A model generated the notes under the pieces. It was given only the letters and a program-made list of their open reading frames with translations. It did no database searches and had not been told where the DNA came from. This document shows, one piece after another, positions 1,463 through 52,314 of a stretch of 64,000 nt of DNA; the first letter of the stretch is position 1, and each line of letters starts with the position of its first letter. The stretch lies in assembly GCA_018262775.1 (NCBI GenBank), contig JADFDU010000001.1, positions 33,769 to 97,768 on the forward strand, given 5' to 3'. This stretch comes from Rhodocyclaceae bacterium (GTDB lineage Bacteria > Pseudomonadota > Gammaproteobacteria > Burkholderiales > Rhodocyclaceae). The position numbers and the translations under genes are program-made.

Positions 1463-3802
1463 TTACTCCGCGCGCAGCATCGGCCGCGCGGCGTTGATGA
1501 CGACGAGGATGCTGCTGGCGGACATGGCGATGGCGGCGGCGAGGGGGTTGAGGACGCCGGCCATCGCCAGCGGAATGGCGACGACGTTGTAGGCGAGCGC
1601 CCAGCCGAGGTTCTGGCGGATGCGGCGGCGGGTGATGGCGATGAGGTCGAAGGCGTCGATGACGCGATCGAGGCGCTTGCCGGGGATGACGACGTCGGCG
1701 GCTTCGGCGGCGAGCGCGGTGGGCGCGCCGAAGGCGATGCCGAGGTCGGCTTCGGCGAGCGCCGGTGCGTCGTTGCTGCCGTCGCCGATCATGGCGACGC
1801 GGCCCTTGGCTTTCAACCTGCGGATGACGGCGGCCTTGGCTTCGGGCGGCACGCCGGCATGGACTTCGTCGACGTGCGCCTGGTAGCCGTTGGGATGCTC
1901 GGCGCCAGTGAGGAGGACGACGCGACTGTGGCGGCGCAGGCGCGCGACGACCTGTTCCCATTCCGGGCGCGAACTGTCGCGGGTGACGATGGCCCCTTCG
2001 GCGCGGCCGTCCCAGCCGACGAAGGAGACGACACTCTCGCCGTGGCGATGCTGTTCCATCTCTTGCGCCAGCGTGTCCGGAATCGTCCAGCCGAGCGTGG
2101 CGAAGAGGGCGCGGCTGCCGACCGCGACGCGCTTGCCGGCGACGACGGCCGAGGCGCCGCGGCCGGGATGGATGTCGACCTCGGTGGCGCTGCGGCTGGC
2201 GTCGAGCCGCGCGATGGCGCGGGCGACGGGATGCGGCGAATGCCGCTCGACGGCGGCGGCGCGGGCGGCAATTTCGGCCGGGCCAATCACTTCGACAACG
2301 GCCATCTCGCCGGTGGACAGGGTGCCGGTCTTGTCGAGGGCGATGACGTCGACGTCGGGCGAGTTCTCGAAGAGGTTGGCAGCGGTGATGACGATGCCGC
2401 GTTGCAGCGCGGCATTGATGGCGGCGGCAGTGGTGAGCGGAATGGCGAGGCCGAAGGTACACGGGCAGGAGACGATCAGCGTGGCCAGGCTCGCCAGCAG
2501 CGCCTTCTCGATGGGCGCGCCACTGATGTGAAAGCCGAGCCCGACGAGGCAGGCGAGCACCAGCACAATCGGCACGAAGGCGCGCGCGAGGCGGTCGATG
2601 CGGCCCTGCAGGCCGGTGCCGGCGCTCTGCGTGTGCCAGAGGATGCGCGCGAGGTTGGCCATGCGGCTTTCGATGTGCGGCCCGGTCTCGATCTCCAGGT
2701 TGCCTTCGAGCAGGACGCTGCCACCGAGTACTTTCTCGCCGGCGCCGCGCAACACCGGGAAGGGCTCGCCGGTGAGGAGGGATTCGTCGACGGCGCCCTC
2801 GCCTTCGACAATGCCGCCGTCGACGGGAATGGCTTCGCCCTGGCGCACGAAGACGCGGTCGCCGGGCAGCAGGTCGGCGAGTTCGCACATGAGGTACTGG
2901 CCGTCGCGCAGGACGCAGGCCTGCGGCGACCAGGCGCGCATGATGGTGTTGAGCGACTGCGTGGCGCGCGCGCGCATGCCGCGTTCGAGGAAGCGGCCGA
3001 TGGTGATCACCGCGACGAGCGTGCCCGCCACTTCGAAATAGAGGTCGATCGGGTCGTGGAACAGCTGCACCACGCTGTAGCCCCAGGCGGAGAGGATGGA
3101 CAGGGCAAGCAGGGCGTCCATGTTGAGCAGGCCGGCGCGGATGCCCGTCCACGCCCCGCGCAGGATCGGCCAGCCGACGTAGAAGACGAGGATCGAGGAC
3201 AGCAGGAAGAGGGCGCTGGGCGTGAGGATGAACGCCATCCAGCGCATGGCGCCGTAATCCTCCACCGTGAGGAGGCCGGCGTGGATCGGGTAGATGAACA
3301 GCAGGGTGAGCATCATCACCGACGAGGCGAGCGTGGCGCCGGTGAGCAGCCGCAGCAGGTCCATGCCTTCGTCGTATTCCGGCACGGGTTCGTTGCGCAG
3401 CTGGGCACGGTAGCCGGCGCGGCTGACGAGCGCCGGCAGTTCGGCTTCCTGGACGAGGGCGGGATCGTAGACGATGCGGGCCGTGGCGGTGGCGTAGTTC
3501 GACGCCGCGGCGAGCACGCCGGGGTGCTTCAGGGCGAGCTTCTCGATGAGGAATTCGCAGGAGGCGCAGTGCATGCCGTCGATCCACAGGAAGGCTTCGC
3601 TGCCCTGCGGCTCGGGCACTGTGTTCGCCGTATTGCGGGGACTGACTTTTGCGGCGGTGAAGACGTCTTCACCGAAGGCGCGGTACACCTCGCGGCAACC
3701 GTAGCAGCAGAAGGCGTGCCCGGCATCCTGGATCGGCGGCTCGGGTGCGGGCAGGCCGCAAAGCTGGCAGGGAATGGCGATCAGGGTTCTGTCCATGCGC
3801 AT
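1463..3802 (-). CDS. Heavy-metal (Cu) translocating P-type ATPase, CcoI/FixI-like
   Basis: N-terminal CxxC and FCCYGC region, GMHCASC MBD, SCPC membrane motif, DKTGT phosphorylation site, GDGSNDAPAL. Confidence 0.92.
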   Translation of the reverse strand: MRMDRTLIAIPCQLCGLPAPEPPIQDAGHAFCCYGCREVYRAFGEDVFTAAKVSPRNTANTVPEPQGSEAFLWIDGMHCASCEFLIEKLALKHPGVLAAASNYATATARIVYDPALVQEAELPALVSRAGYRAQLRNEPVPEYDEGMDLLRLLTGATLASSVMMLTLLFIYPIHAGLLTVEDYGAMRWMAFILTPSALFLLSSILVFYVGWPILRGAWTGIRAGLLNMDALLALSILSAWGYSVVQLFHDPIDLYFEVAGTLVAVITIGRFLERGMRARATQSLNTIMRAWSPQACVLRDGQYLMCELADLLPGDRVFVRQGEAIPVDGGIVEGEGAVDESLLTGEPFPVLRGAGEKVLGGSVLLEGNLEIETGPHIESRMANLARILWHTQSAGTGLQGRIDRLARAFVPIVLVLACLVGLGFHISGAPIEKALLASLATLIVSCPCTFGLAIPLTTAAAINAALQRGIVITAANLFENSPDVDVIALDKTGTLSTGEMAVVEVIGPAEIAARAAAVERHSPHPVARAIARLDASRSATEVDIHPGRGASAVVAGKRVAVGSRALFATLGWTIPDTLAQEMEQHRHGESVVSFVGWDGRAEGAIVTRDSSRPEWEQVVARLRRHSRVVLLTGAEHPNGYQAHVDEVHAGVPPEAKAAVIRRLKAKGRVAMIGDGSNDAPALAEADLGIAFGAPTALAAEAADVVIPGKRLDRVIDAFDLIAITRRRIRQNLGWALAYNVVAIPLAMAGVLNPLAAAIAMSASSILVVINAARPMLRAE

Positions 3803-3863
3803 GTCGGCAGGGCTGGCGAATATCCTGGCCCTTCGCCCTCATGATACCCCCCCCTCACCCCAG

Positions 3864-3889: not shown

Positions 3890-3911
3890 GGAGGCGGGAT
3901 GAAACAGCAGG

Positions 3912-8036: not shown

Positions 8037-9848
8037 ATGCGGATGGCTGAAGTGCATGAGGTTGCCGTACCCGATGTCGGCAGCAAGGAGGCGTTGCTGG
8101 TCGCGGAAATACACGTCAAGACCGGCGACATGGTGTGGGCAGACGCTGCGCTGATCACCGTCGAATCGGGTAAGGCGGCGCTGGATGTGCAGGCGCCCGT
8201 GGATGGCATGGTCATGGAAGTCCGGGTCGTCCTGGGCGACAGCGTGACCGTCAGCAGCATCGTCGTCGTCATCGAGGCCAGCCTGGAGCAGCGTCCCAGA
8301 AGTCAGCCGCCCCAACACGGCGGCACACCTTCTGCACCACCGCGTTTTTCCCTCTTCGCCGCATTCAATGCCGCCACCCAGGTTGCTCACACTCCCGAAG
8401 AGATTGCGTGCGATGTGCTGGTGCTCGGCGCCGGTCCGGGCGGCTATTCCGCAGCGTTTCGTGCCGCCGACCTGGGCTTGAAGACGGTGCTGGTCGAGCG
8501 CCATGCCGTCATGGGGGGCGTTTGCCTCAATGTCGGCTGCATCCCATCCAAGGCGCTGTTGCATCTGACCGCGGCAATGGAAGGCGCTGCCGGCCTGGCC
8601 GAGGCAGGCATCCGCTTCGCCGCGCCCGACATCGACCTCGCCCGCCTGCGCGCCCACAAGGACAAAGTGGTGGGCAGGCTCACCGGTGGTCTGGCAGGCA
8701 TGGCCAAGGCGCGCAAGGTGCGCCAGGTGTTCGGCAGCGGCCGCTTTCGCGACGCGCACAGCATCGAGGTCGAACTCGCCGACAACACCGGCCGGCAGGT
8801 CATCCGCTTCGACAAGTGCATCATCGCCGCCGGCTCGCATCCCATCCACCTGCCCTTCCTGCCCAGGGATGAACGCATCGTCGACTCCACCGGCGCGCTG
8901 GCGCTGCGCTTCCTGCCACGAAGGATGCTGGTGATCGGTGGCGGCATCATCGGCCTGGAGATGGCGACGGTCTATTCGGCACTCGGCGCGCGCGTCGATG
9001 TGGTTGAGATGCAGGACGTGCTGATGCCCGGGCCCGACCGCGACCTGGTGAGCATCTGGGAAGGACAGAACCGGCATCGCTTCGACCACATCATGCTGCG
9101 CACGCGCACCGTCGCGGCAGACGCCCGCGAGGACGGCGTGTGGGTGCGTTTCGAGGGCGACATGGCGCCGGCGGATGCGCAGCGCTACGACATGATCCTG
9201 CAGTCGGTCGGGCGCAAACCAAACGGCCTGCGCATCGATGCGGAGAAGGCGGGCCTTGCGGCCGACGCGGCCGGCTTCATTGCCGTCAACAGCCGCATGG
9301 CCACCCGCGTGCCGCACATCTTCGCCGTCGGTGACATCACGGGCATGCCGATGCTGGCCCACAAGGCGGTGCACCAGGCCCACGTGGCGGCCGAATCCGC
9401 TGCGGGCCTCGACTGCCATCACGATGACTCGCTGATCCCCGGCGTGGCCTACACGCATCCCGAGATCGCCTGGGTCGGCTTGTCCGAGGATGAGGCAAAG
9501 CGGAAGGGCATGCACGTCGACGTGGCGCGCTTTCCCTGGGCTGCCTCGGGGCGGGCGATTGCCAACGGCGCGGATTACGGCATGACGAAGCTGGTGTTCG
9601 ACCGCGCCAGCGGCGCCATCCTGGGCGGCGCCATCGCCGGCCCCGGCGCCGGCGACATGATCGGCGAGATCGTCCTGGCAGTCAGCCGGGGATGCGACGC
9701 CGCCGCCATCGGCAAGGCCATCCACCACCCGCATCCCACGCTCGGCGAGACGGTCGGCATGGCCGCCAGTGTTGCCCACGGCTGTTGCACCGACCTGCCG
9801 CAGGATCTGGCGCGGCAACGTGGCCTGGCGGCGCTAGTGCAGGCTTAA
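8037..9848 (+). CDS. lpdA: Dihydrolipoamide dehydrogenase with N-terminal lipoyl domain
   Basis: Lipoyl domain (ITVESGKAALDVQAP) + GAGPGGYSAAFRAADLG, GGVCLNVGCIPSKALLH redox disulfide, HPE motif (AYTHPEIAWVG). Confidence 0.93.
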   Translation: MRMAEVHEVAVPDVGSKEALLVAEIHVKTGDMVWADAALITVESGKAALDVQAPVDGMVMEVRVVLGDSVTVSSIVVVIEASLEQRPRSQPPQHGGTPSAPPRFSLFAAFNAATQVAHTPEEIACDVLVLGAGPGGYSAAFRAADLGLKTVLVERHAVMGGVCLNVGCIPSKALLHLTAAMEGAAGLAEAGIRFAAPDIDLARLRAHKDKVVGRLTGGLAGMAKARKVRQVFGSGRFRDAHSIEVELADNTGRQVIRFDKCIIAAGSHPIHLPFLPRDERIVDSTGALALRFLPRRMLVIGGGIIGLEMATVYSALGARVDVVEMQDVLMPGPDRDLVSIWEGQNRHRFDHIMLRTRTVAADAREDGVWVRFEGDMAPADAQRYDMILQSVGRKPNGLRIDAEKAGLAADAAGFIAVNSRMATRVPHIFAVGDITGMPMLAHKAVHQAHVAAESAAGLDCHHDDSLIPGVAYTHPEIAWVGLSEDEAKRKGMHVDVARFPWAASGRAIANGADYGMTKLVFDRASGAILGGAIAGPGAGDMIGEIVLAVSRGCDAAAIGKAIHHPHPTLGETVGMAASVAHGCCTDLPQDLARQRGLAALVQA

Positions 9849-13478: not shown

Positions 13479-13622
13479 GGCGCAAATTTTACACCGCGAC
13501 AACGGCAGACCTGCATCCTGCACGGCGCGGCTTGCATCGCCGTCCTGCAGCGGCTGACTTTCCGCCTGCGCCCGGCGCCGGTGCTAGAATCGTTCGTCAT
13601 AGCGGAGGGAGGGCGTGGCAGC

Positions 13623-17526: not shown

Positions 17527-18689
17527 GCAGGCATTGGCCGAAGGTGCGGCTGGGCGATGTGCTTCGCCACCGCAAGGAATTCATCACCATCGACGACCTC
17601 GAAACCTATCGGCGGCCAAGGGTGCAACTGCATGCTCAAGGCATCGTTCTCCGAGACGAGGTGCCCGGTGCGCTGATCAAGACCAAGAGCCAACAGGTCT
17701 GCCGTGCAGGCGAATTGCTGGTCGCGGAGATCGACGCCAAGGTTGGCGGCTTCGGCATCGTGCCCGAAAGCTTGGACAGCGCAGTCGTCAGTAGCCACTA
17801 TTTCCTCTTCGAAGTCGATGCGGCCAAGCTGGAGCGCCGTTTCCTCGACTACTTCATTCGCACGCACGCTTTCCGTGGTCAAGTTGAAGCGCAGGGTTCG
17901 ACAAACTACGCAGCAATTCGGCCTACGCATGTCCTAGGCTACGAAATCCCCCTGCCACCCCTCGCCGAGCAGCGCCGCATCGTGGCGCGCATCGAAGAAC
18001 TGGCCGCCGAAATCCACGAGGCCCGCAAACTACGAGAGGAAGCTGGCAATGAGGCTTCGGCCCTGATTCAAAGCGTGCTGCACGATCATTTCTCTCGCCG
18101 ATCGGTGTCTTGGTGTTCTTTGCCGATTGGGGATGTAATCGAAATCAAGGATAAGTTGGTCGACCCAACGTTGCCCGCATATCGTCACTTTCCACACATC
18201 AGCGGTGAGAACATGGAAAGCGGAACTTGCCGACTGCTCCCTTGGCGTACTGCAGAACAAGATGGCGTTCGGAGCAATAACTATCTTTTCGGCCCCGGAA
18301 CCATACTCTATTCGAAAATCCGACCCTACCTTCGAAAGGCGATCCTTGTTGATTTCGAGGGCGTCTGCAGCGCGGACGTGTATCCCATCCGTGCGACTAA
18401 CAACGAGCTCGATCCGACATTTGTCATGTGGTCTCTTGTGGCAGAACCATTTACCGCGCATGCAAACCGATTGTCTGGCCGCACGAGAATGCCGAAGCTG
18501 AACAGAAAGCAACTCTTCGATTTCCGGCTCGCCTATCCACCTCTAGACGAACAACGCCGCATCGTCGCCGAACTGGACGCCCTGCAAGCCGAGGTCGACA
18601 CTCTGAAACGCCACCAGGCCGACACCGCCGCCAAGCTCGACGCACTGCTCCCCGCCATCCTCGACCGCGCCTTCCGCGGCGAACTCTAG
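17523..18689 (+). CDS. hsdS: Type I restriction-modification specificity subunit S
   Basis: Two TRDs each followed by (L/P)PLxEQRRIVxxxxxL conserved helices. Confidence 0.94.
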   Translation: MSRHWPKVRLGDVLRHRKEFITIDDLETYRRPRVQLHAQGIVLRDEVPGALIKTKSQQVCRAGELLVAEIDAKVGGFGIVPESLDSAVVSSHYFLFEVDAAKLERRFLDYFIRTHAFRGQVEAQGSTNYAAIRPTHVLGYEIPLPPLAEQRRIVARIEELAAEIHEARKLREEAGNEASALIQSVLHDHFSRRSVSWCSLPIGDVIEIKDKLVDPTLPAYRHFPHISGENMESGTCRLLPWRTAEQDGVRSNNYLFGPGTILYSKIRPYLRKAILVDFEGVCSADVYPIRATNNELDPTFVMWSLVAEPFTAHANRLSGRTRMPKLNRKQLFDFRLAYPPLDEQRRIVAELDALQAEVDTLKRHQADTAAKLDALLPAILDRAFRGEL

Positions 18690-18704
18690 AAGAAACGACA
18701 GGCC

Positions 18705-20266: not shown

Positions 20267-22314
20267 ACCTTCATCAGCTCCCGCCGCCCGCCCAGCCAGC
20301 GCTCGACGTGGCGGTCGGCGGCATCCGGATAATCCTTCAACAACAACTCCGCCGCCTCGCGCGCAGCTTCAAGCAAGTCGGCGTCCGTTTCCAGATCGGC
20401 GAAGCGCAGCAGCGGCACGCCGCTCTGACGTCTGCCAAGGAATTCGCCGGGGCCGCGCAGGTGCAGGTCCTGGCGCGCGATCTCGAAGCCGTCGGCGTTT
20501 TCGAAAATGATTTTCAGGCGTGCGCGCGCGATCTCGCCGAGCGGGTGGGCGTAGAGCAGGATGCATACCGAGTCGTCGGCGCCACGGCCGATGCGCCCGC
20601 GCAGCTGGTGCAGCTGCGAAAGGCCGAAGCGCTCGGCGTGCTCGATCACCATGAGCGAGGCGTTGGCCACGTCGACGCCGACCTCGATCACCGTGGTGGC
20701 GACGAGCAGATGTATCTTCCCTGCCGCGAAGTCGGCCATCACGCGCGCCTTCTCCTCGCCCTTGAGGCGGCCATGCACCAGGCCGACGTTCAGCCTGGGG
20801 AGTTCGGTGCGCAGGCGCTCGAAGGTGTCCACCGCAGTCTGCAACTGCAATTTCTCGCTCTCTTCGATGAGCGGGCACACCCAGTAGGCCTGCCGGCCCT
20901 GCGCGCAGGCGTCGCGGATGCGCGCGATGACTTCGTCGCGGCGCGCCTCCGACGCGAGCTTGGTGAGCACCGGCTGGCGGCCGGGCGGCAGTTCGTCGAT
21001 CACCGAAACGTCGAGGTCGGCGTAGTAGCTCATGGCCAGGGTGCGCGGGATGGGCGTGGCGGACATCATCAACTGGTGCGGATTGACGCCCTTCTCGCGC
21101 AAAGTCAGTCGCTGGCGCACGCCGAAGCGGTGCTGCTCGTCGATGATGGCGAGCCCTAACTTGGGGAAAGTCACAGCCTCTTCGATCAGTGCATGCGTGC
21201 CGACGGCGAGGCGGGCGCGGCCACTGGAGATGGCCTCGGCCATGGCCGTTTTCTCCTTCTTCTTCAGGCTACCGGAGAGCCAGGCGATGTCCAGCCCGAG
21301 CGGCGCCAGCCACTGCGCGAGCTTGCGGTAATGCTGCTCGGCGAGGATCTCGGTGGGCGCCATGAGCACGGCCTGGTATCCGTTCTCGACGGCCTGCAGC
21401 ATGGCGAGCGCAGCGACCACCGTCTTGCCGCTGCCGACGTCGCCCTGCAGCAGGCGCTGCATGGGATGGGATTCACCAAGGTCATGGGCGATCTCGCGCC
21501 AGACGCGCTGCTGCGCGGTGGTGAGGGTGAAGGGCAGCGCGGCGAGGAATTTTTTCGTCAGTGTGCCTTTTTTCGGTAGCGGCGGCGCGGTCTTGGCGCG
21601 GCGCGCTTCGTGGGCGCGGCGCAAGGAAAGCTGCTGCGCAAGCAGCTCGTCGAACTTGATGCGCCGCCAGGCCGGATGGACGCGTGCATCGAGATCGGCG
21701 GCGGCGGTCTGCGGCGTGGGGTGATGCAGCAGCCGCACGCTGCCGGCAAAGTCCGCCAGGCGCAGCTTCTTGCGCAGCGTGTTGGGCAAGGTCTCGGCGA
21801 GGTCGGCCTGCTTCAGCGTGAGGTCGATGAGCCGCCGCAGCGCCAATTGCGAGAGGCCGGCGGTGGTCGGATAAATCGGCGTCAGCGCCTCAGGCAACGC
21901 CTCGCCTTCCTCGACAACACGGCAGCGCGGGTGCACCATCTCGTCGCCAAGAAAGCCGCCGCGCGGCTCGCCGAAGAGGCGCAGGCGCCGGCCGGCGGCA
22001 AGCTGCTTTACCTGGCTGCCGTAGAAATTGAGGAAGCGCAGCACCAGCACACCGCTGTCGTCACGCACGCGCACGACGAGCTGGCGGCGCGGACGGTACT
22101 GCACGGAAGAATCGACGATCTCAGCTTCGACCTGGGCCGGCACACCCGGACGCAGGTCGGCGATCGGCGTAAGCTGCGTTTCGTCCTCGTAGCGCAGCGG
22201 CAGATGCACGACGAGGTCGGCCTGCGTGCGGATGCCGAGCTTGGCGAGCTTGTCGGTGGTCGCCGAGGTGACGCCGGGAATTGCGGACGGAGCGCCGTCT
22301 GCGCGAGGCATCAT
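20263..22314 (-). CDS. recG: ATP-dependent DNA helicase RecG
   Basis: LLQGDVGSGKTVVA, DEQHRFGVRQR, MSATPIPRTLA, QLRGRIGRG; start placed inside ORF because the 5' extension reads through a palindromic repeat. Confidence 0.95.
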   Translation of the reverse strand: MMPRADGAPSAIPGVTSATTDKLAKLGIRTQADLVVHLPLRYEDETQLTPIADLRPGVPAQVEAEIVDSSVQYRPRRQLVVRVRDDSGVLVLRFLNFYGSQVKQLAAGRRLRLFGEPRGGFLGDEMVHPRCRVVEEGEALPEALTPIYPTTAGLSQLALRRLIDLTLKQADLAETLPNTLRKKLRLADFAGSVRLLHHPTPQTAAADLDARVHPAWRRIKFDELLAQQLSLRRAHEARRAKTAPPLPKKGTLTKKFLAALPFTLTTAQQRVWREIAHDLGESHPMQRLLQGDVGSGKTVVAALAMLQAVENGYQAVLMAPTEILAEQHYRKLAQWLAPLGLDIAWLSGSLKKKEKTAMAEAISSGRARLAVGTHALIEEAVTFPKLGLAIIDEQHRFGVRQRLTLREKGVNPHQLMMSATPIPRTLAMSYYADLDVSVIDELPPGRQPVLTKLASEARRDEVIARIRDACAQGRQAYWVCPLIEESEKLQLQTAVDTFERLRTELPRLNVGLVHGRLKGEEKARVMADFAAGKIHLLVATTVIEVGVDVANASLMVIEHAERFGLSQLHQLRGRIGRGADDSVCILLYAHPLGEIARARLKIIFENADGFEIARQDLHLRGPGEFLGRRQSGVPLLRFADLETDADLLEAAREAAELLLKDYPDAADRHVERWLGGRRELMKV

Positions 22315-22395
22315 CGTCATTCCCGCGGAAGCGGGAATCCATGAGTGCAAACGTAAAGCCACTGGGTCCCCGCTTTCGCGGGGACGACGATCATG
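22314..22395. repeat. REP-like inverted repeat unit (GTCATTCCCGCGGAAGCGGGAATCCA ... CCCCGCTTTCGCGGGGACGACGAT)
   Basis: Inverted palindromic arms read directly; similar unit at 29843-29925. Confidence 0.75.
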
Positions 22396-22405
22396 CGGCC
22401 TGCTT

Positions 22406-28087: not shown

Positions 28088-29821
28088 ATGAAGAAAACCG
28101 CGGCATGGCTTGCCACCCACGCGCTGGAGCAGCTCGGCGTGCGCTTCACCTTCGGCATCCCCGGCGTGCAGAACACCGAGTTCTACGACGAGCTGAACCA
28201 GTCTGAAACGATCACGCCGATCCTCGTCACCCACGAAGGCAGCGCTGCTTTCATCGCCGACGCGGTGAGCCGCGTCTCCGGCTCGATCGGCACGCTCGCC
28301 ATCGTGCCGGCGGCCGGTCTCACCCACGCCTCGAGCGGCATTGCCGAGGCGCTGCTCGCCGGCGTGCCGATGCTGGTGATCACCGGCGGCATCCGCACCG
28401 ACCTGGGCAAACACTACCAGCTGCACGAGATCGACCAGCACGCTTTCATGAAGCCGCTGACCAAGGCGACCTTCCGCATCGAGCGCCACGTCGATGTCGT
28501 GCCGACGATCTTCGAGGCCTATCGCATCGCCACCTCGGGCGAGCCGGGCCCGGTCTTCGTCGAACTGCCGGCGAACCTGCAGCTGTTTCCGCAAGAGGTG
28601 GGCGAGCTGCCCGCGTGGGTGCGACCGGCGGCACCGCCCCTGCCGGCGCAGGAAGACATCGCGCGTGCGGCCGAGGTGCTGCTGACGGCTGACCACCCCG
28701 GCATCTTTGCCGGCTGGGGCGCGGTGGACGCGCTACCGCAACTGAAGGAGATCGCGGAGTTCCTGCAGGCGCCGGTGGCCACCACCCTGCAGGGCTTGTC
28801 GACCTTCCCCGCCACACATCCGCTGCATGCCGGCTTCAGCTTCGGCCCGCATGCCGTGCCCGCCGCACGCAACGCCTTCGCCGCTTGCGACGCCCTGCTC
28901 GCCGTCGGCACGCGCTTCGGCGAGATCGGCACCGGCAGCTTCGGCGTGACGGTACCGGAAAAGCTGGTGCACATCGACATCAACCCGCAGGTGTTCGACA
29001 AGAACTATCCGGCCAAGGTGGCACTTGAAGGCGATGCGGCCGCCGTATTGCAGAAACTGACTTTTGAATTGCAGCAGCGCGGCGCGGCACGCGCGGCCGG
29101 CAACGGGCCGCAGGAGCAGATCCGCCGCGACAAGCAGGCCTACCGCGAGGAATGGTATGCGCATGACTCCAAGGGGCGCGTGAACCCGGCACGCTTCTTC
29201 GATGAGCTGCGGCTACAGATGCCCGACAACGCCATCGCCACGGTGGACGACGGCAACCACACCTTCCTCACCGCCGAGCTCTTCCCGGTGCACGCCAGCC
29301 GCGCGCTGATCCTGCCGACCGATTTCAACTGCATGGGTTATGCGGTGCCCGCCGCCGTCGGCGCCAAACTGTCGCAACCGCAACGCGAGGTGTTCTCCAT
29401 CGTCGGCGACGGCGCCTTCATGATGACAGGCATAGAAATCCTCACGGCGACGAAGGAGGGACTGGGCGTCGCTTACTTCGTCTTCCACGACGGCGAGCTG
29501 TCGCAGATCGCCCAGGCGCAGGAGATTCCCTACAACCGCAAGCCGTGCGCCGTGCTCGGCTCGGTGAACCTCGAGGGCATCGCCATGGCCACCGGCGCGG
29601 CCTACGTGCGCATGGAAAACGACGCGGCCATCGCCGGCGCCATCAGCGAGGCGCGCCGCATCACCGCGACCGGCCGGCCGGTGGTGGTGGACGTGAACAT
29701 CGACTATTCGAAGCGCACCGCCTTCACCAAGGGCGCGGTGAAGACCAACTTCAAGCGCTTCCCGCTGGCGCAGCGCCTGCGCATGGTAAGCCGGGCGCTG
29801 GTGCGCAAGGTAACGGGTTGA
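28088..29821 (+). CDS. Thiamine diphosphate-dependent enzyme, acetolactate synthase-like
   Basis: FTFGIPGVQNTEFYD, THEGSAAFIADA catalytic Glu region, VGDGAFMMTGIEILTATKEGLGVAYFVFHDGELSQIAQ. Confidence 0.88.
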   Translation: MKKTAAWLATHALEQLGVRFTFGIPGVQNTEFYDELNQSETITPILVTHEGSAAFIADAVSRVSGSIGTLAIVPAAGLTHASSGIAEALLAGVPMLVITGGIRTDLGKHYQLHEIDQHAFMKPLTKATFRIERHVDVVPTIFEAYRIATSGEPGPVFVELPANLQLFPQEVGELPAWVRPAAPPLPAQEDIARAAEVLLTADHPGIFAGWGAVDALPQLKEIAEFLQAPVATTLQGLSTFPATHPLHAGFSFGPHAVPAARNAFAACDALLAVGTRFGEIGTGSFGVTVPEKLVHIDINPQVFDKNYPAKVALEGDAAAVLQKLTFELQQRGAARAAGNGPQEQIRRDKQAYREEWYAHDSKGRVNPARFFDELRLQMPDNAIATVDDGNHTFLTAELFPVHASRALILPTDFNCMGYAVPAAVGAKLSQPQREVFSIVGDGAFMMTGIEILTATKEGLGVAYFVFHDGELSQIAQAQEIPYNRKPCAVLGSVNLEGIAMATGAAYVRMENDAAIAGAISEARRITATGRPVVVDVNIDYSKRTAFTKGAVKTNFKRFPLAQRLRMVSRALVRKVTG

Positions 29822-29925: not shown

Positions 29926-29935
29926 GTTTCGGCAA

Positions 29936-35989: not shown

Positions 35990-36954
35990 GGCTCTTCCTT
36001 TCTCAAATCATGTCCATTTTTCTGCAGCGGCATCGGTGTCAGCCGGCCGACGATGGCGGGTCGCGCATCGCCTTCCACGTGCAGCGCGAACACCGTGCCG
36101 CCTGCATCCTGGGCATGGTGCAGCGTCACCTCTGCGCCGTAGAAGACCGGACCTTTCAGCCATGTGTCCAGAGCGGCCGTATCCAGGCCGCCCTCGCCGT
36201 CCAGCCGCGGCAGGCGCGCCAGGCAGTGCCCGAGCACACGCTGCGGATGCAGGAAGGCGCGCGCATAGCCGCGCCTTTTCGCGTAACCGTTCCACAAGTG
36301 CAGCGGGTTGTAGTCGCCCGAGAGGCCGCCGTATTGCCAGCCGCCGCGCATGGGCAGGCGCCAGCTCGCCGTCTCGCCGGGACTGCCTTTTGGTTCCGGT
36401 GTAAGGCCCGCTACGCGGGCATTAGCCTCCACCGAAACTAGTTTTGGCGCTGCGGGTACGTTGGCGTCCGCCGTCGGTGCGCCGTAGCGGCCGCGCGCAT
36501 AGAAGGTGTTCACGCTTTCCCAGGCGACGTCGTCACCGGCGCGCACCGTGGTGCGCAGGTCGAACTCGGCACCCTTGTCGAGGACACGGTGAGCGGCAAT
36601 GTCGACGGCGATGTCCAGGGTGGCATCCGCAGCGATCGCGCGGTGCTGCAGGATGCGGTTGCGCACCTGCAGCATCCTCCAGATCGGCAGCGGAAACGCC
36701 GGCTGGGTGAGGATCGCCATGTGCAGGGGAAAACCGAGGGTGTGCGGCAGGAGCAGCGGCAGGGTGTGCGTCTCGGGCAGGCCGGAGAGGGCCAGGAAGC
36801 GCGCGAGTTCGCTGCCGTCGACGCGATGCCGCCAGCGCGCGCCGATCGCCGGCACACCGCCCCGGCGTACACCGGGCGAGGTGCGCAGCAGCCGTGCCAT
36901 GAAGGCCAGCGCCGAGGGACGCCTGCGGTAATCGAGGCGGATATCCCTGTGCAT
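35977..36954 (-). CDS. MaoC-like acyl dehydratase family protein
   Basis: GGLSGDYNPLHLWNGYAKRRGYARAFLHPQRVLGHCLARL hot-dog hydratase signature. Confidence 0.75.
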   Translation of the reverse strand: MHRDIRLDYRRRPSALAFMARLLRTSPGVRRGGVPAIGARWRHRVDGSELARFLALSGLPETHTLPLLLPHTLGFPLHMAILTQPAFPLPIWRMLQVRNRILQHRAIAADATLDIAVDIAAHRVLDKGAEFDLRTTVRAGDDVAWESVNTFYARGRYGAPTADANVPAAPKLVSVEANARVAGLTPEPKGSPGETASWRLPMRGGWQYGGLSGDYNPLHLWNGYAKRRGYARAFLHPQRVLGHCLARLPRLDGEGGLDTAALDTWLKGPVFYGAEVTLHHAQDAGGTVFALHVEGDARPAIVGRLTPMPLQKNGHDLRKEEPCRN

Positions 36955-38310: not shown

Positions 38311-40662
38311 TTAGGCCGCCGCGCGCTGCGGCGCCGGTTTCGCCTCGCTGCGCTGCAGGCCGAGGTCGAAGGGGAAATCGTCCACCTTGATGACTTCGTC
38401 CGCCAGCGCATGGGCACGGGCGAGCAGCGCCTGCTCTTCGGCATTGATGACGCCGTGTTGCAGCGCCTGACTTTCGATTTCCTGCGTGCTGTTGCCGGAG
38501 AGCGTGCCGGCCTTCTGCGCGGCGCGGATCTTCGCCGCCACGCTTTCGGCCTTGAGCGTCGCCTCCAGCGCCAGCTCGACGACGCCGACGGGATCGTGCT
38601 CGTCGCGCGGCAGGTACATGCCTGCGGTGAGGCGGTCACGCGTGACGGAAGGCGCGATGAGCAGATTCGCCACCTGGCCGCCGAGGCGGTCGGAGGGCAC
38701 GACGTAGGGCCGGCCGAGCGGGAAGATGGTTCGTTGCAGCAGGGTCGAGACGAAGCGGCTGGGGAAATTCGAAACCACGCCCTCGAAGGCGTTCTGCGCC
38801 TTGAACATCGAATCCCACATGGCCCAGTGCATGAGCGGGGCGTCGGCCGCCTGGCGACCTTCCGACTCGTAGCGCTTGAGCACCGCCGAGGAGAGGTACA
38901 TGAGAGAGAGGATGTCGCCCATGCGCGCCGAGAGTTTCTCCTTGCGCTTGAGGTCGCCGCCCATGACGAGCATGGAGATGTCGGCGAGGAAGGCGAAGGC
39001 CGAGGAGAAGCGCGTCAGCTGCTGGTAGTAGCGGCGCGCCTCGGGCGCCACGTTGCCGGGCACCTTGACGAAGTGCGAGCCGGTGATGCCGGTGATGAAG
39101 GCGTTCCAGCCATTGGAAACGGTGTGGCCGATGTGCGCGAAGAGCGCATTGTCGAAAGCCTTCAGGTCGTCATTCTGCGCGGCCTGCATTTCCGCCAGCA
39201 CATAGGGATGGCAGCGCACCGCACCTTGGCCGAAGATGATCAGGCTGCGCGTGAGGATGTTGGCGCCTTCGACGGTGATGGCCACCGGCACCTGCTGATA
39301 GGCGCGGCCGAGGAAGTTCGAGGGGCCGAGGCAGATGCCCTTGCCGCCGAGGATGTCCATGCCGTCGTTGATCGACTCGCGCGCACGCTCGGTGACGTGG
39401 TACTTGACGATGGCGGAGATGACCGAGGGTTTCTCGCCGAGGTCGATGGCGCCGGCGGTCATGACGCGCGCGGCATCGCACAGATAGAGGTTGCCACCCA
39501 TGCGCGCCAGCGGCTCCTGGATGCCCTCGAACTTGCCGATGGCCGTCTTGAACTGGGTGCGCACGCGGGCGTAGCCGCCGACCGCGCGCACCGCCAGCTT
39601 CTGCATGCCGGTGTTGGAGCCGGGCAGGGAAATCGCGCGGCCGGCGGCGAGGCACTCCATGAGCATGCGCCAGCCCTGGCCGGCCATCTTCGGTCCGCCG
39701 ATGATGAAGTCGAGCGGCATGAAGACATCCTTGCCGCGCGTCGGACCGTTGTGCCAGGCGGCGTTGAGCGGGAAATGGCGGCGGCCGGTGTCCACACCGG
39801 GATGGTCGGCCGGCACCAGTGCGCAGGTGATGCCGATATCCGCATTTCCGCCGAACGCGTCACCGAGCAGATGCTCCGGGTCGAAGAGGCGGATGGCGAG
39901 GCCAACCACCGTGGCCACCGGCGCGAGCGTGATGTAGCGCTTGTCCCAGGTGACGCGCATGCCGACGACTTCCCTGCCCTGCCACATACCCTTGCAGACG
40001 ATGCCCTGGTCGGGGATCGAGGCGGCATCGGAGCCAGCCCAGGGGCTGGTCAGGGCGAAGCAGGGAATGTCGAGGCCCTTGGCCAGGCGCGGCAGGTAGT
40101 GGTTCTTCTGTTCGTCGGTGCCGTAATGCAGCAGCAACTCGGCCGGGCCGAGAGAGTTGGGCACCATCACCGAGACCACCGTCGCCGAACAGCGCGTGGC
40201 CAGCTTGGTCACCACCTCGGAATGGGCGTAGGCGGAAAACTCGAGGCCACCGTAGCGCTTCGGGATGATCATGCCGAGGAAGCCCTTGTCCTTCATGTAC
40301 TGCCAGGTCTCGGCCGGCAGGTCATGGTCGTAGTGCGACGACGTCCAGTCGTTGGAGAGGCGGCAGAGTTCCGCCGTCTCGTTGTCGAGGAAGGACTGCT
40401 CTTCCGGCGTGAGTTTGGGCAGCGGATAGGCCAGCAGCTTGTTCCAGTCGGGGCGGCCATGAAACAGTTCGCCCTCCCACCAGACGGAGCCAGCTTCGAT
40501 CGCCTCCTTCTCGGTTTGCGACATCTGCGGCAGCATCTTGCGGTAGGCGGCGAAGAGCGGCCGCGTCACCAGCGCGCGGCGCAGCGGCTTGATGGCGAAC
40601 AGCGCCACGATCGCAGCGATCGGCAGAAGTATCAGAAGTGTCCAAGTCGGTGTCCAGGTCAT
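38311..40662 (-). CDS. fadE: Acyl-CoA dehydrogenase, FadE type
   Basis: ~780 aa with N-terminal TM segment and acyl-CoA dehydrogenase core (LTSPWAGSDAASIPDQGIVCKG, DILGGKGICLGPSNFLGRAYQQVPVAITVEGANILTRSL). Confidence 0.93.
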   Translation of the reverse strand: MTWTPTWTLLILLPIAAIVALFAIKPLRRALVTRPLFAAYRKMLPQMSQTEKEAIEAGSVWWEGELFHGRPDWNKLLAYPLPKLTPEEQSFLDNETAELCRLSNDWTSSHYDHDLPAETWQYMKDKGFLGMIIPKRYGGLEFSAYAHSEVVTKLATRCSATVVSVMVPNSLGPAELLLHYGTDEQKNHYLPRLAKGLDIPCFALTSPWAGSDAASIPDQGIVCKGMWQGREVVGMRVTWDKRYITLAPVATVVGLAIRLFDPEHLLGDAFGGNADIGITCALVPADHPGVDTGRRHFPLNAAWHNGPTRGKDVFMPLDFIIGGPKMAGQGWRMLMECLAAGRAISLPGSNTGMQKLAVRAVGGYARVRTQFKTAIGKFEGIQEPLARMGGNLYLCDAARVMTAGAIDLGEKPSVISAIVKYHVTERARESINDGMDILGGKGICLGPSNFLGRAYQQVPVAITVEGANILTRSLIIFGQGAVRCHPYVLAEMQAAQNDDLKAFDNALFAHIGHTVSNGWNAFITGITGSHFVKVPGNVAPEARRYYQQLTRFSSAFAFLADISMLVMGGDLKRKEKLSARMGDILSLMYLSSAVLKRYESEGRQAADAPLMHWAMWDSMFKAQNAFEGVVSNFPSRFVSTLLQRTIFPLGRPYVVPSDRLGGQVANLLIAPSVTRDRLTAGMYLPRDEHDPVGVVELALEATLKAESVAAKIRAAQKAGTLSGNSTQEIESQALQHGVINAEEQALLARAHALADEVIKVDDFPFDLGLQRSEAKPAPQRAAA

Positions 40663-40749
40663 GTGCTTCTCCTTAGTCTTCCTCCGGCGGATTTCCGCCG
40701 GGGACAGGTACGCAGCAAAGTCAGTGCCGGCTGCACGGCGATGGGGAAA

Positions 40750-43509: not shown

Positions 43510-44421
43510 ATGAAAAAAATCGCCGTGCTGCAGGCACTGACTTTGTCCGCTGGCCTGCTGGCTGCCCTGCCGGCCTTCGCCCTCGACGGCACACTGAAGA
43601 AGATCAAAGACAGCAGCGCCGTCACCATGGGCGTGCGCGAGTCCTCCGGCGGCCTCTCCTTCACGCTCGGCGACGGCAAGTTCGCCGGCTTCCATGTCGA
43701 GCTGTGCCAACGCGCGCTGGCGGACATCCAGAAGCAGCTGGGTCTGACCAAGCTGGACATCAAGTACCAGCCGGTCACCTCACAGAACCGCATTCCGCTC
43801 GTGCAGAACGGCACGGTGGATATCGAATGCGGCTCGACCACCAACAACGTCGCCCGCCAGAAGGACGTGGCTTTCGCCGACACCACCTATGTCGAGGAAG
43901 TGCGCATCGCCGTCAAGGCAAATTCCGGCATCACCTCCATCGCCCAGCTCAACGGCAAGAACGTCGCCACCACCACCGGCACCACCTCCGTGCAGCACCT
44001 GCGCAAGCATGAACGCGCCGCCGGCGTGAAATTCAACGAGGTGTACGGCAAGGACCATGCCGACAGCTTCCTCCTGCTCGAGTCCGATCGCGCCGACGCC
44101 TTCGTCATGGATGGCCAGATCCTTGCCGGCAACATCGCCAAATCGAAGAACCCGGCGGCCTTCAAGATCGTCGGCGAAGTGCTCTCCGTCGAGCCGATCG
44201 CCATCATGGTCAGAAAAGGCGACCCGGCCTTCAAGAAAGCCGTCGATGACAGCCTTCAAGCACTGATGAAGTCCGGCGAGATTGCCAAGATCTACGACAA
44301 GTGGTTCATGCAGCCGATTCCGCCGACGAACACGCGCATCGGCCTGCCGGCGTCCGAAGCGACGAAAGCGGCCTGGGCCCATCCCAACGACAAGCCGATG
44401 GAAGACTACGCGAAGAAGTAA
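43510..44421 (+). CDS. gltI: Glutamate/aspartate ABC transporter substrate-binding protein
   Basis: Signal peptide; VTMGVRESSGGLSFTLGDGKFAGFHVELCQRAL; operon with permeases and ATPase. Confidence 0.9.
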   Translation: MKKIAVLQALTLSAGLLAALPAFALDGTLKKIKDSSAVTMGVRESSGGLSFTLGDGKFAGFHVELCQRALADIQKQLGLTKLDIKYQPVTSQNRIPLVQNGTVDIECGSTTNNVARQKDVAFADTTYVEEVRIAVKANSGITSIAQLNGKNVATTTGTTSVQHLRKHERAAGVKFNEVYGKDHADSFLLLESDRADAFVMDGQILAGNIAKSKNPAAFKIVGEVLSVEPIAIMVRKGDPAFKKAVDDSLQALMKSGEIAKIYDKWFMQPIPPTNTRIGLPASEATKAAWAHPNDKPMEDYAKK

Positions 44422-46676: not shown

Positions 46677-47489
46677 ATGGCCGCACAGAACGAAACGAAG
46701 AACATGGCGCTGTTCTGCGACTTTGAGAACGTCGCACTCGGCGTACAGGAAGCAAAGTACGAGCGCTTCGACATCCGCAAGGTGCTCGAACGCCTGCTGC
46801 TCAAGGGCAGCATCGTCGTCAAGAAGGCCTACTGCGACTGGGCGCGCTACAAGGACTTCAAGGCGCCCATGCACGAGGCCGCCTTCGAGCTGATCGAGAT
46901 CCCGCACGTGCGCCAGTCCGGCAAGAACTCCGCCGACATCCGCATGGTGGTGGACGCCCTAGATCTGTGCTACACCAAGGCGCACGTCGACACCTTCGTC
47001 ATCATCAGCGGCGACTCCGACTTCTCGCCGCTGGTGTCCAAGCTGCGCGAGAACAACAAGCTGGTGATCGGCGTCGGTGTAAAGAAGTCAACCTCCGATC
47101 TCCTCATGGCCAACTGCGACGAGTTCATCTACTACGACGATCTGGTGCGCGAGGAGGAAACAAAGAAGCGCGCTGCGAAGAAACGCCCGGCGAAGCCGAA
47201 AGCGGCGCCGAAGAAAGAAGGCGGCGAGTCTGCAGAGGACGAGGACCGCAAGCAGGAAGCACTCGATCTCGTTCTGGAAACCATCGAGGCGCTTATCGTC
47301 GAGCGCGCCGGCGAACCGATTTGGGGATCCATGATCAAACCGGCCATCCAGCGCCGCAAACCGGGTTTTACCGAGTCTTATTACGGCTTCAAATCGTTTG
47401 GCCAACTGCTTGAAGAGGCACAGGCGCGGCACCTAATCGAATTACAGCGCGACGAGAAATCCAGCAACTACATCGTGCGCATCATCTGA
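46677..47489 (+). CDS. NYN-domain protein with C-terminal OST-HTH/LOTUS domain
   Basis: MALFCDFENVALGV..., VVDALDLCYTKAHVDTFVIISGDSDFSPLVSKLRENNKLVIGVG; C-terminal LOTUS-like region. Confidence 0.9.
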   Translation: MAAQNETKNMALFCDFENVALGVQEAKYERFDIRKVLERLLLKGSIVVKKAYCDWARYKDFKAPMHEAAFELIEIPHVRQSGKNSADIRMVVDALDLCYTKAHVDTFVIISGDSDFSPLVSKLRENNKLVIGVGVKKSTSDLLMANCDEFIYYDDLVREEETKKRAAKKRPAKPKAAPKKEGGESAEDEDRKQEALDLVLETIEALIVERAGEPIWGSMIKPAIQRRKPGFTESYYGFKSFGQLLEEAQARHLIELQRDEKSSNYIVRII

Positions 47490-47668
47490 CATCGACAGCG
47501 GGGGAAATGGGAGGTGAGGTATGGCCTTGGGGAATGGGCAGGCTCAGGGATGCGGACATACGTTCTGTTCGGTAGCCGGGGCCGCGTTCGCTTGAAAGTC
47601 AGCCTCCCGCATACGGCGACAGACTGCCTGCGGGAATTGGAACAGACCACGTTTCCATTGCGGTACCA

Positions 47669-48091
47669 TTAAAACTTCACGGCCCGCATCTTCAATCGCC
47701 GGGCGTTTGCAGCCAGGGTCGCATCAAGAGTGGCGATCGCCTTCGTGCCCGCTTCCAGCGCAACGGCAAGGTGAAGCGCATCGCCGGCGCGCAGGCCATG
47801 TGCCTGTTGCCGCGCCAGCCGCGCACCCTCCCGGAAGGCCTCCCGACTCACCGTAACCAGTCGCAGGCCTGATTCGCAGAACGCCTCGAAGCCGCGCCAT
47901 GCTGCTCGCGCGTCCTTTGCCGAGAGCACCCCGGATCGCTCCTTGAGCGAAAGCGCGCTGGCGAACTCGGTCATGATCCAGTCGGATGACAACAGCGGAT
48001 CGGCACAGGTCTCGAACCACGCGTCGACGGCCGCGCTGGCCGGCTCACGTATGAACAGCGGAACGACGGCGCTTGTGTCGAAATAGATCAT
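47669..48091 (-). CDS. vapC: PIN-domain VapC-like toxin
   Basis: MIYFDTSAVVPLFIREP, SDWIMTEFASALS, LRAGDALHLAVAL. Confidence 0.88.
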   Translation of the reverse strand: MIYFDTSAVVPLFIREPASAAVDAWFETCADPLLSSDWIMTEFASALSLKERSGVLSAKDARAAWRGFEAFCESGLRLVTVSREAFREGARLARQQAHGLRAGDALHLAVALEAGTKAIATLDATLAANARRLKMRAVKF

Positions 48092-48345
48092 CAGTAGCGT
48101 GCCTCTTTGCGCATCTTCTCGACCACCGGTTCGGTTTCCGGCATGGCTTCGCGCAATTTGCGCGTCTGCACGAGAAATGCAGTTTTGTCGAAGGGTCTGG
48201 TCGGCACCAAGGTGATCTCGCCGCGCGCTGTCACTTCCGCCTCGACGCTGTCCCCCTCGCGCAGCCCCGCCTTGCGAACCCATTCGTTGGGCAGCCGCAC
48301 CGCCAGACTATTGCCCCATTTCGCCACCTGCAATCGCACATTCAT
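48091..48345 (-). CDS. vapB: AbrB/SpoVT-type antitoxin
   Basis: MNVRLQVAKWGNSLAVRLPNEWVRKAGLREGDSVE; stop overlaps VapC start. Confidence 0.88.
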   Translation of the reverse strand: MNVRLQVAKWGNSLAVRLPNEWVRKAGLREGDSVEAEVTARGEITLVPTRPFDKTAFLVQTRKLREAMPETEPVVEKMRKEARY

Positions 48346-48360
48346 GATTCGAGCCTCTAT

Positions 48361-48390
48361 GTATATCCGTGTATATCCGTGTATATCCAT
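48361..48390. repeat. Three tandem 10-bp repeats GTATATCCGT GTATATCCGT GTATATCCAT upstream of vapB
   Basis: Read directly. Confidence 0.9.
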
Positions 48391-48400
48391 GTTAGCATAA

Positions 48401-49345
48401 TTACAGCCCCGGATCGCTCCCCTCCTTGCCACCCAGCGCCGACTCCACCATGCGGCGCGTCAGGTGAGGTGCGAATAGTTCGATGAAGGTATAGGCATAG
48501 CTGCGCAGCCAGGCGTTCCTGTGGATGCCGATGCGCGTGGTGGCCGACTCGAACAGGTGGGCGGCATCCACCGCACGCAGCTCCTTATCCGCCCCCGGAT
48601 CGTAGGCCATATAGGCGACGATGCCGATGCCCAGCCCCAGCGCCACGTAGGTTTTGATGATGTCGGCGTCGAGAGCCGTCAGTACCACATTCGGCGCAAG
48701 GCCGCGCCCGGCGAAAGCCTTGTTGATCTGGCTGCGGCCGGTGAAGGCGAAGTCGTAGGTGATGATCGGGTATTTCGCGATCGCCTCCAGCGTCAGCGGC
48801 TTCGCCTTGAGGATGGGGTGATTCGGCGGCGCGATGACGCAGCGGTTCCACTGGTAGCAGGGCAGCATGACCAGATCATTCTGCTCGGCGATGGCTTCGG
48901 TGGCGATGGCGATATCCGCCGCGCCGCCCAATACGTATTCGCACACCTCGGCCGGACTGCCCTGGCGCAGGCTCACCCGCACGTTCGGGTGGCACTGCAT
49001 GAACTGTTGCACGACAGACGGCAGGACGTAGCGTGCCTGGGTGTGAGTGGTGGCGATGGCCAGCGTGCCGGACTCCTCGGCACCGAATTCCTTGCCCACG
49101 CTGCGCATGTTGTCGAGGTCACGCAGCATGCGCTCGGCGATCTTCAACACCTCCCGCCCTGGATCCGTAATGGCGGTGAGGCGTCTACCCTGGCGCACGA
49201 AGACCTCCACGCCGAGTTCTTCCTCCAACAGGCGAATCTGCTTCGACACGCCCGGCTGCGAGGTATGCAAGACTGCGGCGGCCACGGAGACGTTGAGGCC
49301 GCTGCGGGCGACCTCGAAGACATAGCGCAGTTGCTGTAGATTCAT
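48401..49345 (-). CDS. cysB: LysR-family CysB-like regulator
   Basis: MNLQQLRYVFEVARSGLNVSVAAAVLHTSQPGVSKQIRLLEEELGVEVFVRQGRRL; adjacent to cys genes. Confidence 0.93.
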   Translation of the reverse strand: MNLQQLRYVFEVARSGLNVSVAAAVLHTSQPGVSKQIRLLEEELGVEVFVRQGRRLTAITDPGREVLKIAERMLRDLDNMRSVGKEFGAEESGTLAIATTHTQARYVLPSVVQQFMQCHPNVRVSLRQGSPAEVCEYVLGGAADIAIATEAIAEQNDLVMLPCYQWNRCVIAPPNHPILKAKPLTLEAIAKYPIITYDFAFTGRSQINKAFAGRGLAPNVVLTALDADIIKTYVALGLGIGIVAYMAYDPGADKELRAVDAAHLFESATTRIGIHRNAWLRSYAYTFIELFAPHLTRRMVESALGGKEGSDPGL

Positions 49346-50207: not shown

Positions 50208-50220
50208 AAAGGGAAACATC

Positions 50221-52314
50221 ATGACGACCCAACTCGCCCCCCTCGTCCCCCTCGCCGACGCCGACGAAATCGTCCACTACGAAGCGGCGCTCGCCCGCTA
50301 CCTCGACCTGGAACTCGACGCCGAGCGCTTCACTGCCCTGCGTCTGCAGCAGGGCGTGTACGGCCAACGCCAGGAGGGCGTGAACATGGTGCGCATCAAG
50401 CTGCCGGGTGGCCGCCTCGACCCCGCGCGGCTGGCGGCCATCGCCGAGGTTGCCGAGAAGCATGTGCCGCAACAGGTGGTGCACATCACCACACGGCAGG
50501 ACATCCAACTGCACCACGTGCCGCTGACGGAGACCGGCGCCGTGCTGCGCCGCCTCGCCGAGGACGGCGTGACGACGCGCGAGGCCTGCGGCAACACCAT
50601 CCGCAACATCACCGCCTGCCCGCTCGCCGGCGTCTGCCCACGGGAGCACACCGATGTCAGCCGACATCTCGACGGCGCGGTAGCGCACTTCCTGCGCAAC
50701 CCGCTCAACCAGCAGATGCCGCGCAAGTTCAAGGTCAGCTTTTCCGGCTGCGAGGCGGACTGCGCCCAGGGCCTGATCCACGACCTCGGCATCGTCGCCA
50801 CGCAACAGGGCGAGAGCAGCGGCTTCACTGTGCTCGCCGGCGGCGGCCTCGGCCACAAGCCGCACGAGGCCATCACCGTCGCCGAGTTCATCGAGGAGCG
50901 CGACCTGCTGCCAGCCATGGAAGCCGTCATCACGCTGCACAACAAGTATTCAGCTCGGACGAAGCGCGCCAAATCGCGCGTCAAGTTCCTGGTGGACCGC
51001 TTCGGCGAGACCGGCTTCATCGAGCGCTTCAATGAAGAGTTCGCGCGCACGCGGGCGGCGCTCGCCGGCAAGCCGGCGCCACGAGGCGAGTGGCGCGCGG
51101 CCACGCGCGGTCCGGTGCCCGGCCCATGTGCGCCCCGCGTATTTTTTGCCCAGAAGCAAGCGGGACTGCACGTCGTTCCTCTCGCCGCGCCGCTCGGTCA
51201 GCTCACCTCCGTCCAGTTGCAGGGTCTTGCCGCCCTGCTCGGCGAATTCGGTCTGGCTGATGTGCGCACCACCCAGGATCAGAACCTGATCGTGCTCAAC
51301 GTGCCGGCCGCATGGATCTCACCCCTGACCGCGCGCCTGGCCGAACTCGGCCTGAAGACGCCGCAGGCAGGTGACAACGTTGTCGCCTGCCCCGGCAGCT
51401 CGACCTGTCGCCTCGGCATCACCGCCTCGATGCACATCGCGCCGAAGCTCTCCGGCGGCAAGCACGATCTGCGCATCCGCGTCTCCGGCTGTCACAACGG
51501 CTGCGCGCAGCCGGAATCGGGCGACATCGGCATCTACGGCGAGGGCAAGCGCCAGCACGGCAAGCTGATCCCGCACTACCAGATGTACTTCGGCGGCGAC
51601 GGCACCAGCGCCTGCGGTTCGATCGCCCTGAAGGGACCGTCAATCCCGGCGGCCCGCATCGAGCAGGCCATCCAGCGCATACAAAAGGTCTATGACGAAG
51701 AACACGTCGAGGGCGAGCGCTTCTTCGGCTGGGCGCAGCGCCAAGGAGCCGGGCGCTTCCAGTCCCTGCTCGCCGACCTGACCCAGGTATCGCGCTTCGA
51801 ACTGGCGAAGCTCACGCGCGACCATGGCGACGCGGCAGATTTCCACGTCGTTTCGCTCGGCGGCGGCGAATGTGCCTCAGCCACCGACGTCGCCATCGGC
51901 CGTGCCTTCTTCGACGCTGCGCACGAACGCAGCTATCGCGAGGCCTTCACCTTCCAACGCAAGTATGAGGATGCGGCGGCCTGCGCCGAGGCCCAACTCA
52001 AGCTGGTCGGTGGCGGCCTGGCCAGCTTCCTCGGCGGCAAGGCGAAGGAACTCGCCGACATTGCCGCCGTGCTGCAGGGACTGACTTTTGCGGAAGCGCT
52101 CGGCAACCGCCTCAGCCACCTGGCCGGCGCGTTGGCCGGCCTTGTCGAGGCCGCCGAGGCGGAAGTGCATCGGGTCTTCGTCGAGATCGACCTGTGGATC
52201 GTCGACGCCGCTGCCCTGTGCCAGTCGCACGACCCGCAACTCGACCTGCGCGGCGCCCTGCCCGCCGTTCCTGCACCGCGTCCAACACGCCAGACCGCAG
52301 CCGCGGTTGCCTGA
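50221..52314 (+). CDS. cysI: Siroheme nitrite/sulfite reductase with C-terminal extension
   Basis: TTREACGNTIRNITACPLAGVC, SGCEADC, VACPGSSTC, SGCHNGCAQPESGDIG. Confidence 0.9.
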   Translation: MTTQLAPLVPLADADEIVHYEAALARYLDLELDAERFTALRLQQGVYGQRQEGVNMVRIKLPGGRLDPARLAAIAEVAEKHVPQQVVHITTRQDIQLHHVPLTETGAVLRRLAEDGVTTREACGNTIRNITACPLAGVCPREHTDVSRHLDGAVAHFLRNPLNQQMPRKFKVSFSGCEADCAQGLIHDLGIVATQQGESSGFTVLAGGGLGHKPHEAITVAEFIEERDLLPAMEAVITLHNKYSARTKRAKSRVKFLVDRFGETGFIERFNEEFARTRAALAGKPAPRGEWRAATRGPVPGPCAPRVFFAQKQAGLHVVPLAAPLGQLTSVQLQGLAALLGEFGLADVRTTQDQNLIVLNVPAAWISPLTARLAELGLKTPQAGDNVVACPGSSTCRLGITASMHIAPKLSGGKHDLRIRVSGCHNGCAQPESGDIGIYGEGKRQHGKLIPHYQMYFGGDGTSACGSIALKGPSIPAARIEQAIQRIQKVYDEEHVEGERFFGWAQRQGAGRFQSLLADLTQVSRFELAKLTRDHGDAADFHVVSLGGGECASATDVAIGRAFFDAAHERSYREAFTFQRKYEDAAACAEAQLKLVGGGLASFLGGKAKELADIAAVLQGLTFAEALGNRLSHLAGALAGLVEAAEAEVHRVFVEIDLWIVDAAALCQSHDPQLDLRGALPAVPAPRPTRQTAAAVA

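Follow-up and report, generated by a model that had tools for sequence, protein, structure and literature searches.

A dispersed 24-bp DNA motif of Rhodocyclaceae bacteria as a probable DNA-uptake sequence

The stretch of DNA considered here (the window; 64,000 nucleotides, G000:C1:33769-97768) was taken from a 3.09 Mb Rhodocyclaceae genome in 57 contigs (handle G000), and carries a dispersed 24-bp DNA motif that consists of CGCCGT, ten looser bases and CTGACTTT. The source organism is a relative of Candidatus Desulfobacillus; its RecG protein finds its nearest counterparts in betaproteobacterial bins and in Candidatus Desulfobacillus denitrificans (86% identity), the complete genome of which (AP021857.1; handle G158) aligns with the window at about 82% identity. 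The copies of the motif in the window, with their state in G158 where noted, are as follows.

3626..3649, + strand: exact; antisense in a P-type ATPase gene (1463-3802, -); core exact and middle diverged in G158
8299..8322, - strand: one mismatch (CTGACTTC); antisense in a lipoyl/Lpd gene (8037-9848, +); degenerate and with a 3-bp indel in G158
13538..13561, + strand: exact; intergenic, at the left edge of a type I restriction-modification island
21101..21124, - strand: one mismatch (GGCGT half); sense, in the conserved RecG segment FGVRQRLTLREK
29041..29064, + strand: exact; sense in a gene for a thiamine diphosphate (ThDP)-dependent enzyme (28088-29821, +)
36367..36390, + strand: one mismatch (CTGCCTTT); antisense in a gene at 35977-36954, -; exact in G158
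38451..38474, + strand: exact; antisense in a FadE-type acyl-CoA dehydrogenase gene (38311-40662, -); one mismatch in G158
40717..40740, - strand: exact; intergenic, between fadE and a TetR-type regulator gene
43521..43544, + strand: exact; sense, at the signal-peptide start of a GltI-type gene (43510-44421, +); identical in G158
47595..47618, - strand: exact; intergenic, 3' of vapC (47669-48283, -); region unaligned to G158
52065..52088, + strand: exact; sense in a CysI-type sulfite reductase reading frame; identical in G158
54921..54944, - strand: two mismatches; antisense in a CysN-type gene (53979-55259, +); one mismatch in G158

A preliminary description of this DNA had reported eight exact and two near-exact copies, all of which were recovered at their places; its inventory had missed the one-mismatch copy at 36367-36390 (+) and the conserved two-mismatch copy at 54921-54944 (-), the latter of which is probably genuine, and had put the copy at 47595 upstream of vapC, a gene on whose 3' side it lies. 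Base composition predicts 0.0005 exact and 0.02 one-mismatch copies per 64 kb, against 8 and 3 observed, in line with the earlier estimate of far fewer than one exact copy.

The statistics that follow were derived from 459 kb of the source genome, supplemented by genome-wide pattern counts. The logo obtained from this sample reads t-CGCCGT-VYYGCRGVGR-CTGACTTT-c; hence, the inner consensus proposed earlier (NNTGCAGNNN) was too narrow, and the left half, given as YCGCCGT, is retained as CGCCGT with a weakly preferred base in front of it (T in 46%). With at most one mismatch allowed, CGCCGT-N10-CTGACTTT occurs 531 times in the whole source genome (272 copies on the + and 259 on the - strand), while the reversed control pattern has no match at all. 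Exact copies (63) outnumber those with one mismatch (15) or with two (15), beyond which chance matches dominate; a strong over-representation is also apparent for CTGACTTT alone (87 occurrences versus 5.6 expected). The 10-bp distance between the two halves is fixed, as had been noted from the window, since all 63 exact copies have a gap of 10 and not a single one was found at gaps of 0-9 or 11-30. The edges of the motif are sharp: the information content falls to background within one to two bases on either side and the flanks are not conserved, which argues that nothing longer has been copied. A check for hairpins and other folds revealed no stable fold and no hairpin of note. Neither chance-level counts nor a confinement to the window, the two outcomes that the preliminary description had named as fatal to its motif, was found, as the copies are spread genome- and clade-wide.

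The placement of the motif relative to genes was assessed for 78 copies in the 459 kb with gene calls made by our own script. Intergenic DNA holds 33 of them, where 11 are expected (an approximately threefold enrichment), mostly between tandem genes and only in three cases between divergent ones. The remaining copies (58%) reside within genes, 21 in sense and 24 in antisense orientation, on both strands and in several reading frames; the sense frame that would place a TGA codon within the gene is avoided. This distribution bears out the earlier view of a DNA-level signal, and the same applies to the middle ten bases, since their preferences are much alike in intergenic, sense and antisense copies. 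No orientation bias is discernible in the complete genome AP021857.1, where a slightly wider pattern matches 241 times on one strand and 237 times on the other. A small sample of this genome had looked polar with respect to replication, an idea that was abandoned when the positions on both strands over 0-1.27 Mb gave 100 and 83 copies, with a strand clustering of at most 1.6 standard deviations. A depletion of the motif in foreign DNA was likewise considered and dropped, as no clear rule emerged from five motif-free stretches longer than 25 kb; judged by eye from the starts of the encoded proteins, one of these has the look of a polysaccharide island and includes an IS66-type element, one carries IS66/IS21-type elements, and the others resemble ordinary core genes.

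Comparison of the window with AP021857.1 revealed that the motif is kept in place between species. Eight sites are present in both genomes with no more than one mismatch in either; across them, 110 of 112 core positions (14 per site, counted by hand from the alignments) are identical, corresponding to 98%, versus 81% in the middle ten bases, a value similar to that of the genome as a whole. In a looser set of sites that includes weak two-mismatch matches, the contrast shrinks but keeps its direction. As judged from these alignments, the core is maintained at each place and does not reflect recent copying. Gaps are absent from the shared window sites except at 8299. The copy within recG (21101-21124) offers a view on how such sites originate. 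In this region the 35 other recG genes identified are all equal in length, without a gap, and most other Rhodocyclaceae use the codons CTG-GCG-CTG, or close variants, where the five genes of the Desulfobacillus clade have CTG-ACT-TTG, an Ala-to-Thr exchange that creates the motif. Equal lengths together with these codon changes indicate that the RecG copy arose through point substitution and not through insertion. The corresponding gene of ZoogPmx449 reads CTG-ACC-TTG, so that the amino acid is kept while the motif is eroded; from these codons it seems that the copy decays once the maintaining force has gone.

Two regions of the window set themselves apart in this alignment. The type I restriction-modification island (13496-20262), comprising hsdR, hsdM, hsdS and neighboring genes, has the motif at its left edge only and is missing from the syntenic place in AP021857.1, and the region of the vapC-type toxin gene (47481-48401) is unaligned amid otherwise syntenic DNA. 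Furthermore, the segments 22280-22430 and 29850-29935 contain inverted repeats and frames yielding RESGDP...WIPASAGMT-like peptides, and thus resemble a common type of repeat akin to repetitive extragenic palindromic (REP) elements.

The motif is a property of a part of the Rhodocyclaceae. Six close relatives contain 357-478 copies each (slightly wider pattern), and among 151 genomes of the Genome Taxonomy Database (GTDB) family nine genera are rich in the motif, with the rest near chance level; it was also detected in the two other sampled members of genus g19 once the pattern was widened. Within a set of 399 genomes of the order, motif-rich members are found only in the Rhodocyclaceae. One genome of another family (G273) has 17 copies with letters from more than one dialect, and one non-family genome of the order has four copies of the sister kind; both may reflect contamination or transfer. 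In a RecG tree, the motif-bearing genera make up the Desulfobacillus clade and a second clade of thirteen rows, both with full support, and the dialects of the motif, common within clades, follow this tree: most genera of the sister clade use [CT]GCCGT-CYCGCCAGCR-CCGACTTT-t, while genus g66 uses GGCGT-nCCGCCAYGG-CTGACTTT. A motif-free clade that includes Thauera stands between the two with weak support, so that a single origin followed by loss and two separate origins are both possible. Near-loss is seen inside the motif-bearing clades as well, in ZoogPmx449 (five copies) and in the incomplete genome G084 (two copies). An alternative uptake-like word did not stand out in 80 kb from each of three motif-free relatives.

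The sister dialect was also found in 74 contigs of a viral collection. Eight large proteins from such contigs were tested, and seven of them belong to phages (Mu-type transposases, portal, tail, baseplate, primase/helicase). With the host of each contig assigned from the motif alone, these contigs have about 54 further copies per Mb (111 copies minus the 74 recruiting matches, one per contig, in 682 kb), roughly one third of the host density, and the presence of the motif in phages argues against a purely chromosomal role. Plasmids gave no convincing match. In ten viral contigs with the sister dialect (L329, L334, L346, L356, L365, L373, L379, L387, L389, L394), the sequence GTTGAGCGACGTGTTA stands beside small reading frames; these sites look like integron attC sites and have the motif in their vicinity, and gene cassettes of these hosts may hence carry the tag. 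Another contig (L339) contains a tandem repeat at 883-2238 in which the sister motif recurs five times, for the most part at intervals of 316 bp.

The properties of this motif are best compared with those of the DNA uptake sequences (DUS) of the Neisseriaceae and the uptake signal sequences (USS) of the Pasteurellaceae. Redfield and colleagues describe for both a strong over-representation, an unusually perfect consensus and no orientation bias, a bias towards non-coding DNA although genes hold many copies too, over-representation in relatives, and an origin by substitution (PMC1626085). The USS is discontinuous, its parts being separated by about one helical turn (PMC1626085), and phages that lysogenize Pasteurellaceae accumulate the host USS, while other phages do not (PMC6776037). 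The Rhodocyclaceae motif shares with the USS its dispersed and non-polar distribution, the strong and perfect consensus, coding as well as intergenic copies, the substitution origin, two clade dialects, the spacing of its parts by about a helical turn and the accumulation in temperate phages (here of the sister dialect). It differs from the USS in its sequence (AAGTGCGGT or ACAAGCGGT plus AT tracts in the USS; a GCGGT core with 3' AT tracts is not seen in our logo), and the USS is several times denser and belongs to a distant gammaproteobacterial family. With the DUS it has in common the betaproteobacterial host, a GC-rich beginning (GCCGT), dialects in step with phylogeny and an enrichment in permissive DNA; the DUS, however, is a continuous 10-12-mer, whereas the motif described here is 24 bp long and looser in its ten middle bases. 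The CTG core, invariant among DUS dialects, is not kept across the dialects of this motif (most of the sister clade has CCG in its place). Since sister genera use CCGA, the likeness of GCCGT and CTGA to the two halves of the DUS, to which the preliminary description had drawn attention, is probably a coincidence.

Apart from density, evenness of spacing and inverted pairs, the attributes listed for DUS and USS are found here as well, and by this analogy we consider it likely that the motif is a DNA-uptake, i.e., self-recognition, sequence. A 'DNA-uptake-like sequence' was the first of the candidate roles in the preliminary description, and the distribution, dialects, strong and perfect consensus, and phage copies, all matching those of known uptake sequences (PMC1626085, PMC6776037), speak in its favor. 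On the best reading of the comparison, it would be independent of both the Neisseriaceae DUS and the Pasteurellaceae USS. The tag would be preferred by the DNA-import machinery of the cell, so that DNA released by relatives would be imported and recombined; near-matches made by point mutation in permissive DNA would provide the starting points, and biased import combined with homologous recombination would then spread and repair perfect copies. Over time, temperate phages and other chromosomal residents would acquire the tag, and its reader would presumably be a component of the uptake apparatus.

Several observations weigh against this assignment. DUS and USS reach about one copy per kb, are spaced more evenly than random, and form close inverted pairs (PMC1626085). 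By comparison, the source genome has approximately 0.17 copies per kb, copies are randomly placed along 1.27 Mb of AP021857.1, without extra evenness (coefficient of variation 0.99), and close inverted pairs are rare. A strict pattern for the dialect of the genus studied here had no match in the viral collection. Moreover, none of the evident candidate readers follows the motif. The reader of the DUS is ComP; that of the USS is only predicted, with PpdA/ComN studied in Pasteurellaceae by orthogroup and mutual-information analysis (PMC12616744). ComEC and type IV pilins are present, which speaks for uptake, and in the source genome a ComP_DUS minor pilin (PF16732) heads its fimT-pilV-pilW operon, which is 79-87% identical in a further genome (G155). 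This operon is non-orthologous in AP021857.1 despite the same motif dialect, so that ComP_DUS cannot simply be the reader; PF16732 pilins and ComEC are equally common in motif-free relatives, and ComEC, being present everywhere, fails as a marker of motif-bearing genomes. An MSHA-like pilin operon, kept in Desulfobacillus species, was rejected as well, since it is absent from the motif-rich genomes G046 and G126 and occurs in several motif-free relatives. As an observation in its own right, the minor-pilin operon has been replaced wholesale between two species of one genus (G000:C10:49508 versus G158:C1:2295259).

We also entertain, as a tentative and rather unlikely alternative, a self-DNA tag that is read by something other than a known type IV pilin, either an uptake receptor of a new family or an intracellular system separating self from foreign DNA that resident phages would satisfy. 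It is improbable, in our view, that the motif is a binding site read inside the cell by a chromosome-organizing or segregation protein (an SMC loader, a nucleoid protein or an FtsK-type guide). The hundreds of dispersed copies kept in place between species would fit such a role, which the preliminary description had listed; it is weakened by the lack of polarity, the asymmetry of the motif, the copies in phage contigs, and dialects that change between genera. Sites such as parS, KOPS and matS vary little; they are short, palindromic, polar or regional. A Chi-type hot-spot of recombination or repair, under which the phage copies would serve as protection from a nuclease, accords with an asymmetric, over-represented motif that is present in phages. 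Chi-like sites are short and show a strong orientation relative to replication, while this motif is 24 bp long with the balanced strand counts given above for AP021857.1; we deem this explanation very unlikely. Even less can be said for a regulatory or restriction/methylation site: some copies do lie in short intergenic gaps and the window does encode a type I restriction system, but most copies are within genes, divergent promoter regions are poorly served, the motif is too long for a restriction site, and AP021857.1 keeps it although the type I island is absent from the syntenic place. A short mobile or palindromic repeat (REP/REPIN-like), suggested by the copy number and the intergenic enrichment, is already largely refuted by the lack of a stable fold, the exact edges without conserved flanks, the divergence of the middle ten bases at shared sites and the RecG copy made by substitution, and receives next to no credence from us.

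In the literature searched, a body that for the most part does not take in subscription journals and preprints, no mention of uptake sequences in connection with Rhodocyclaceae or Rhodocyclales was found, nor did it contain a 15-letter stretch taken from the sister dialect. To our knowledge, sequence-specific uptake has been documented in two families, the Neisseriaceae and the Pasteurellaceae, and it has been studied there mainly in bacteria of animal mucosae. Our data suggest a third bacterial group, environmental Rhodocyclaceae, that recognizes its own DNA by sequence, with a longer motif and in an apparently independent lineage. If this is true, self-recognition in transformation evolves repeatedly, and natural competence would be predicted in bacteria of anammox reactors, groundwater and sludge. 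The Rhodocyclaceae would then offer a fresh system, with dialects and tag-losing relatives, for the identification of a receptor and for testing whether import bias alone gives rise to such tags, and the tag itself would allow phages and contigs to be assigned to these hosts.

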